Source of the DNA: Paracoccaceae bacterium
GTDB taxonomy: Bacteria > Pseudomonadota > Alphaproteobacteria > Rhodobacterales > Rhodobacteraceae
Reading direction: 5' to 3'
DNA: 64,000 nucleotides
NCBI GenBank assembly: GCA_024742405.1
Contig: JANSYP010000004.1
Coordinates: forward strand, 1 to 64,000
Shown: piece after piece, positions 10,847 to 20,834 of the stretch
How the letters are laid out: each line of letters opens with the position of its first letter
Numbering within the stretch: the first letter of the stretch is position 1
The notes under the pieces: model-generated
What the model saw: only the letters and a program-made list of their open reading frames with translations
Databases searched by the model: none
Told to the model about the DNA's origin: nothing
Program-made: the position numbers and the translations under genes

Positions 10847-11077
10847 TTGACAAACCCGTAAAGCCGGTGAACCGTGAAGGCGTGTTCAACAATCGAAAGG
10901 AGGTGATCCAGTGGTCAGAGAAACATTGGAGCGAGGTGTCGGAACAATTCGGGAGGTTCGCCGCTGAGGCAACCCTCGGTCGTTGGGACCACCGGACCGG
11001 CAGGCGCTGACGGCGCCGCTTGAACGACCCCACCTCCATGACTCTCGAAGGGCCGCTCCGATTGGAGCGGCCCTTTT
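10847..11077 (+). ncRNA. Candidate small transcript with a 16S-complementary segment and tiny ORF
   Basis: A consensus -35 TTGACA is at 10847-10852; the -10 is degenerate (around 10868-10876). At about 10895-10911 the sequence GAAAGGAGGTGATCCAG is the near-full complement of the 16S rRNA 3' end, far longer than a normal Shine-Dalgarno. A GTG at 10911 opens an 18-codon ORF (VVRETLERGVGTIREVRR, stop 10965-10967). A second frame from GTG 10903 gives 35 codons ending at 11010. A strong intrinsic terminator closes the unit. It could be a small RNA, a micropeptide mRNA, or both. No longer gene fits in the 308-nt gap. Confidence 0.45.
11048..11077 (+). terminator. Strong intrinsic terminator
   Basis: A perfect 12-bp stem, AAGGGCCGCTCC paired with GGAGCGGCCCTT around a GATT loop, runs straight into TTTT (11074-11077). 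It ends the small plus-strand unit and may also serve the convergent DUF2799 gene. Confidence 0.9.
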
Positions 11078-11133: not shown

Positions 11134-11682
11134 TCAGACCGGATAGTCCGAATACTGGATGCGCTCGAACCTCAGCGCGCGCAGACGGTCCTCAATGCGC
11201 GCCCGCTCGCGACGCAGCTGCCGTCGGTCGCGCAATTCCTCGTCGGAGGCGAAATCGGAGATGTTCCGGATCTGGCTGTTGAGATCGTTGACCTGCGCGC
11301 TGAGCTGACCAATCTGGGTCGACAGTTCGTGATACTGAAGACCGGTAACATTTGCGCGGCTCAGCGCGTCGCGCTCTCCGGCCGGACAGTAGGGTGCCAA
11401 CCGATTGCCGTTGCGGCCGATCTTGTAGGCGTTCTGGGGCGTGCAGTAGCGCTTCAGCCCCTCGGTGCGCCCCGCGCGCCATGCCCTTGCATCGGGCGTG
11501 ATGCCGATCTTGGCGCAAGTCTCGTGATAGGCATTGATCCGGTCCGGCGCGCGACCCGCCGCGCCATCGGCGATGCCGATCCCGCGCCAGTCACCCGCAC
11601 GGCACGCATCCTCTGAAATCGGTTCGCAGGCTGCAAGGAACACCGTTGCGCCGGTCGCGAAAAATAGACACCGAAATAGCAT
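11134..11682 (-). CDS. DUF2799-type lipoprotein
   Basis: A 182-residue lipoprotein with a signal segment and lipobox FLAAC (Cys about residue 19). The central part has the DUF2799 layout: DWRGIGIADGAAGR, then HETCAKIGITPD, then YCTPQNAYKIGRNGN, with paired cysteines. The C-terminal third is a predicted coiled coil rich in Leu, Gln and Arg (LSTQIGQLSAQVNDLNSQIR onward). It is probably anchored in the envelope; function unknown. It faces the small plus-strand transcript unit tail to tail. Confidence 0.85.
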   Translation of the reverse strand: MLFRCLFFATGATVFLAACEPISEDACRAGDWRGIGIADGAAGRAPDRINAYHETCAKIGITPDARAWRAGRTEGLKRYCTPQNAYKIGRNGNRLAPYCPAGERDALSRANVTGLQYHELSTQIGQLSAQVNDLNSQIRNISDFASDEELRDRRQLRRERARIEDRLRALRFERIQYSDYPV

Positions 11683-20698: not shown

Positions 20699-20751
20699 TG
20701 CACTCCCCAAGCGGGACGGGAGCGCACGACGCCTTTAGCGGGGCATGTGCA

Positions 20752-20828
20752 AGACTCCCTCCGCCGGCATGATCCGGTTCAGGTTCCAAGGGTAAAATCT
20801 CAGCCCGTCACCGGGCACCCCTGTCTCG
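20752..20828 (-). promoter_or_regulatory. TPP riboswitch (THI element)
   Basis: Read on the minus strand, the sequence carries the invariant core of the TPP aptamer in order: GGGGTGCCC, GGGCTGAGA, ACCCTTGGAACCTGA, then CCGGATCATGCCGGCGGAGGGA. It sits in the leader of the thi operon, so thiamine pyrophosphate should shut down the seven downstream genes. The 54-nt spacer to thiM and the lack of a clear T-tract hairpin suggest control of translation initiation, as in other Gram-negative thi operons. Confidence 0.97.
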
Positions 20829-20834
20829 AGCGAA

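Follow-up and report, generated by a model that had tools for sequence, protein, structure and literature searches.

Among described RNAs, CC2171, a Caulobacter sRNA that Rfam holds as family RF01867 and types as an sRNA gene, that is as non-coding, comes closest to the element presented here. MH_s33 of Mesorhizobium is listed under RF01867 (PMC5596092), and the structure of the family was revised in Rfam 15 (PMC11701678). In the open-access literature searched, no functional description of CC2171 was found. According to Schrader et al. (2014), translation does take place on two Caulobacter RNAs formerly classed as ncRNAs, which the text does not name (PMC4117421).

The window analysed here is a stretch of 64,000 nucleotides from a Paracoccaceae bacterium (contig JANSYP010000004.1 of assembly GCA_024742405.1, positions 1 to 64,000 of the forward strand). 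RF01867 matches it at 10887-11074 over the full length of the model (1-159), with 45.9 bits and an E value of 7.6e-9 to 8.6e-9; the gathering score of 75 bits is not reached. An earlier note had described a -35 hexamer, a near-full complement of the 16S rRNA 3' end, an 18-codon ORF and a terminator at this locus, and a direct reading of the sequence found every one of them where the note had placed it. The note knew of no described function, which holds as far as was searched, but the RNA itself cannot be called undescribed, being related to RF01867/CC2171. The reading that we consider the probable one, with real room for doubt, is that of a stand-alone, self-masking, structured micro-mRNA, a Rhodobacteraceae-type relative of CC2171 that would be opened by the free 30S subunit by means of its 16S complement. 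The features of the locus are as follows.

10847-10852, plus strand: -35-like hexamer TTGACA (direct reading of the sequence)
10884-11077, plus strand: predicted small RNA of about 190 nt, its 5' end placed at the onset of conservation and its 3' end at the T tract
10887-10913, plus strand: 5' block CAACAATCGAAAGGAGGTGATCCAGTG, common with the Rfam CC2171 consensus (cmscan alignment and class-wide 20-mer scan)
10895-10911, plus strand: 17-nt complement of the 16S rRNA 3' end with the Shine-Dalgarno inside it, GAAAGGAGGTGATCCAG (from the 16S tails of relatives)
10899-10905, plus strand: 5' arm of P1, GGAGGTG, the Shine-Dalgarno itself (P1 97.4 % paired over 66 sequences)
10907-10930, plus strand: P2, hairpin around the start codon, 10907-10915 with 10922-10930 (93.8 % paired)
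10911-10967, plus strand: 18-codon ORF VVRETLERGVGTIREVRR, GTG start, TGA stop at 10965-10967 (from ORF length in relatives)
10935-10942, plus strand: 5' arm of P3, partner 11024-11030 (93.6 % paired, four pairs with both-sided changes)
10947-10997, plus strand: P4, long stem in which 10947-10955 pairs with 10989-10997 and, in its apical part, 10961-10969 with 10974-10982; it contains the stop codon and the 3' end of the ORF
10999-11020, plus strand: P5, small stem, for which the alignment pairs 10999-11001 with 11018-11020 (86.9 % paired, two pairs with both-sided changes)
11031-11037, plus strand: 3' arm of P1, CACCTCC, internal anti-Shine-Dalgarno just before the terminator (alignment fold)
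11048-11077, plus strand: intrinsic terminator with a stem of 12 bp (11048-11059/11064-11075) that runs into the T tract TTTT at 11074-11077

A canonical -10 to partner TTGACA was not found, the consensus scan giving no full promoter; upstream of the elements of relatives, a TTTTGAC block followed some 17 nt on by a GTGnCA block recurs. Elsewhere in the window a TPP riboswitch is present (20739-20832, minus strand, 68.7 bits, above the Rfam gathering score).

By DNA similarity the block was detected in 129 of 150 genomes of the same family, nearly all from different genera, the weakest matches covering the terminator only. A covariance model, R1, was built from 66 elements; it matches the window at 10890-11076 with 145.7 bits. 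Applied to the 121 same-family genomes that are at least 90 % complete, it gave a match in 107, nearly all of them strong and with one strong match per genome. The earlier note had named lack of conservation in close relatives as what would speak against it, and on this count its proposal came through strongly. Judged by these comparisons, the block is conserved far beyond chance.

The likeness to CC2171 lies at both ends of the RNA. In the cmscan alignment, the 5' block (CAACAA..GAAAGGAGGUGAUCCAGUG / CAACAAUCGAAAGGAGGUGAUCCAGUG) is identical over 27 nt, and in both RNAs, which are of similar length, a strong terminator hairpin of the same kind comes straight after the closing helix, the 3' end of the model aligning to 11074. 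The middle part, in contrast, is unrelated in sequence. At CC2171-type loci the closing helix is formed by the first codons (UCAUUGUC) and the segment preceding the terminator, which leaves the Shine-Dalgarno mostly single-stranded, whereas in the window element the closing helix takes in the Shine-Dalgarno itself and P2 holds the start codon. When the CC2171-type closing helix was looked for in the window element, cmscan flagged mismatches at some of its pairs. Because of this outcome and of the score below the threshold, the element is not filed as a member of RF01867. In the reciprocal search, R1 finds the right stretch in many loci of the class, with a best E value of about 2.5e-8, its weaker scores overlapping those of bare terminators. 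These comparisons make it very probable that the window element and CC2171 are forms of a single old RNA, from which the Rhodobacteraceae branch has diverged.

RF01867 matches occur in 61 of 289 alphaproteobacterial genomes, mostly as a single copy, and in a phylum-wide sample all RF01867-type elements among the matches listed fell inside the Alphaproteobacteria. The strict 20-mer AAAGGAGGTGRTCNNRTGTC was present in 82 of 386 alphaproteobacterial genomes and absent from the reversed control. Outside the family, 57 of 58 distinct loci have an ORF of 18-35 codons; lengths in the other frames spread from 0 to more than 60. One genome (G161) apparently carries two diverged CC2171-type copies (C1:805104-805255 and 2921849-2922077). 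At another locus (L157) this 20-mer start block is followed by a longer, signal-peptide-like ORF of 56 codons, possibly a case in which the start site of the element was recruited by a longer gene. In the micro-ORFs of the non-family loci L106, L107, L109, L113, L119 and L181 an internal mimic of the 16S tail, CCUGGAUCnUCgCCUCC, was noticed, which resembles a tail copy into which 3 nt have been inserted and which encodes TWIVAS-like residues; it could pair with the Shine-Dalgarno of the RNA itself. Across the class, an internal 16S-tail-like stretch scored z below -2 in 17 of 58 loci, with a mean z of -1.24; the signal is uneven and uncorrected for kinship, and a class-wide mimic is suggestive only.

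The fold derived from the 66 sequences comprises eight helices and 55 pairs. Standard pairing amounts to 90.7 %, against 38-55 % when the partners are slid by one to three columns, a control that somewhat favours a structure derived from the same sequences. Less dependent on that derivation are the shuffles and the both-sided changes, which were seen at 32 pairs versus 18.6 +/- 1.8 in shuffled data. Thirteen of these pairs are in helices 4-6, and in the terminator (helix 8, 96.3 % paired) 11 of the 12 pairs show such changes. The window RNA folds with z = -3.66 relative to dinucleotide shuffles. P1 shows one-sided changes only, from which its support comes; both-sided changes are lacking here because the Shine-Dalgarno arm is fixed by the 16S complement. 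As predicted from the alignment, the multibranch fold is well supported by covariation.

In 84 of 89 relatives the ORF is exactly 18 codons long, codon 19 being the first in-frame stop. The identity of the stop varies among these (TGA 40, TAG 34, TAA 10), and TGG is never found in its place; some 16 cases of TGG would be expected if the two bases were independent (Fisher p 9e-15, kinship ignored), and the fold would tolerate TGG equally well. In the same 89 relatives, the other frames have no comparable stop peak. In the 66 aligned elements start and stop are always equally far apart, while the spacing between stop and P1 is anything from 48 to 81 nt. The fixed length, the interchanged stops, the absence of TGG and the lack of a stop peak in other frames together strongly indicate translation, so that the ORF is very probably translated. 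The earlier note had left the choice between two start codons; ORF length and stop exchange in relatives speak for translation from GTG 10911, and GTG 10903 was rejected since its frame is broken by early stops in many relatives.

The sequence AAAGGAGGTGATC has a single exact occurrence in the 5.02-Mb assembly, in which no 16S gene of its own could be recognised. The 16S tail was taken from three genomes of the same family because that of the source genome is unassembled. In all three the 3' end reads GCGGCTGGATCACCTCCTTTCTAAGG / CTGGATCACCTCCTTTCTAAGG and is complementary to GAAAGGAGGTGATCCAG over an exact 17 nt, which bears out the near-full complement to the 16S tail that had been claimed. 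Selection on this long Shine-Dalgarno is supported by the comparisons. Exposing the 17-nt site would, by computation, cost about 7.1 kcal/mol in the window RNA and 9.7 kcal/mol on average in the family, and pairing with the 6-nt core would yield about -7.6 kcal/mol, pairing with the full 16S tail about -31 kcal/mol. The over-long Shine-Dalgarno is thereby given a reason: the core barely pays, or fails to pay, for the opening, whereas full pairing does.

Conservation, fold, ORF and 16S complementarity are strongly supported by the sequence comparisons; from the same material we infer transcription, opening by the 30S subunit, switching and output. The micro-mRNA would be made from an RNA gene with its own start region and terminator. 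In the folded state its Shine-Dalgarno would be paired with its own CACCUCC arm, with the start codon inside a hairpin. The 17-nt 16S complement, which goes far beyond what an open mRNA needs, would let the 30S subunit displace the fold and initiate, after which the ribosome would translate through P3 and P4 and stop at a fixed place in P4. The output is most likely the translation state of the RNA itself, with its stability or the exposure of CACCUCC, and not control of a neighbouring gene. The earlier note had proposed three alternatives: an RNA that binds ribosomes, the mRNA of a micropeptide, or a sensor of free 30S subunits. Translation of the ORF and the long Shine-Dalgarno are the supported parts of that proposal; a sensor would be compatible with the self-masking fold and the energetics.

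A further step would be to regard the RNA as dedicated to gauging or sequestering free mature 30S subunits, with a regulatory effect of its open state; this we regard as tentative and rather unlikely. The anti-Shine-Dalgarno of the RNA and the 16S tail would then compete for one 17-nt site, the open or translated fraction would report the availability of 30S subunits, and the class-wide micro-ORF would serve only to clear and reset the RNA. If true, such an RNA would be the ribosome counterpart of 6S RNA.

A plain micropeptide mRNA, made for its 18-residue peptide and with a fold that merely tunes expression, would explain the conservation of frame, start and stop, the family-wide consensus VSRxxLE[RK]GVGT, of which codons 6-12 are conserved, and the VSHCH...TWIVAS of part of the class. 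The peptides diverge between families, however, with only [MV]S in common, and codons 13-18 are hypervariable. Stops within the latter number 2 versus 3.7 +/- 1.7 in column shuffles, not clearly rarer, a comparison that weighs neither way. The conserved codons 6-12 overlap P2 and P3, with which their amino-acid conservation is confounded, and this conservation may reflect RNA structure. The TWIVAS codons coincide, moreover, with the internal 16S-tail mimic in several loci. We regard a plain micropeptide mRNA as unlikely.

In the family, the usual gene order is yhhQ - element - arfB. The gene yhhQ, for a queuosine precursor transporter (TIGR00697, score above the cut-off), lies upstream in 83 of 89 loci, and 77 of the 89 have arfB, the alternative ribosome-rescue gene, downstream in the same orientation. 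This synteny made a cis-acting arfB leader or attenuator, in which translation of the 18 codons decides on readthrough of the terminator into arfB, the early favourite. The gap between terminator and predicted arfB start is only 15-30 nt in several loci, and sensing of ribosomes combined with their rescue would fit biologically. In 12 of 89 family loci, on the other hand, arfB is absent nearby, and in the source genome the element is intact with arfB 224 kb distant (C3:235108-235488, minus strand, locus L105; NCBIfam equivalog, 180.9 bits versus 100). The displacement itself, by about 224 kb, sets this genome apart from most relatives. In the window, arfB is not the gene directly downstream; the next gene, at 11134-11682 on the minus strand and convergent with the element, encodes a DUF2799 lipoprotein-like protein. 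Outside the family, neighbours vary, with the downstream gene often on the other strand, as it is in the window, and no arfB was seen in the flanks examined; with such variable neighbours the element looks like a stand-alone RNA gene and not like an arfB leader. By eye, a TAnnnT-like box is visible some 10-13 nt before the ATG of many arfB genes, the displaced copy included, suggesting a leaderless arfB transcript with a promoter of its own, and the alignments, also inspected by eye, showed no convincing conserved antiterminator or consistent competitor of the terminator. The displaced arfB, the variable neighbours outside the family and the probable own promoters led to the attenuator being downgraded: arfB attenuation is possible in relatives but is not the general function, and as an explanation of the element it is quite improbable. 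The strong synteny is left as a neighbourhood effect, which counts against the stand-alone model.

More doubtful still is a trans-acting small RNA, the CACCUCC arm of which, freed when a ribosome opens the fold, pairs with the Shine-Dalgarno of other mRNAs. In favour stand the conservation of the arm, which any opening of P1 would set free, and the stand-alone organisation of the gene; pairing with the RNA's own Shine-Dalgarno, however, explains the arm fully. That the block is an artefact, be it a Shine-Dalgarno arisen by chance, a 16S fragment that has decayed or an antisense 16S end read wrongly, has next to no credit and is ruled out by the conservation (107/121), covariation, ORF and terminator: the minus strand does read like a 16S end, but the match stops at 17 nt, and the antisense reading that the earlier note had warned of is wrong, since the complement sits within a gene of start region, ORF and terminator with its own conserved fold.

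The self-masking micro-mRNA favoured here would, if confirmed, have the Rfam family re-typed as coding, and would provide a clean, naturally occurring case in which to ask whether an RNA serves cells to gauge their free ribosomal subunits. In an alphaproteobacterial "sRNA" a micro-ORF of controlled length is apparently translated, preceded by a complement to the entire 16S tail; in one family the RNA has apparently been rewired so as to hide its own docking site.

To our knowledge, no full 16S-tail complement is known in rnTrpL or Pos19. These two RNAs, rnTrpL/peTrpL of Sinorhizobium and Pos19 of Rhodobacter, are likewise short, and each has a terminator and a very short ORF that is translated (PMC10117765, PMC5036791). 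By its description rnTrpL is set apart from the window RNA as the leaderless attenuator product of trpE, and Pos19 as an RpoE-dependent RNA of 219 nt. In Staphylococcus aureus, mRNAs with an extended Shine-Dalgarno have been reported, and repeat-borne STAR motifs recruit ribosomes when expressed; the extension amounts to two extra base pairs, compared with the 17-nt complement in the window RNA (PMC13009471). Unlike the window element, the S. aureus STAR motifs and extended Shine-Dalgarno sequences form no folded stand-alone RNA family. The window RNA has yet another point of comparison in its fold. In 5' UTRs that mask the Shine-Dalgarno and in translational riboswitches, the site stays hidden by an internal anti-Shine-Dalgarno until the latter is displaced. 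The window RNA differs from these in that the masked ORF makes up the entire gene and in that the apparent displacer is the 16S tail.
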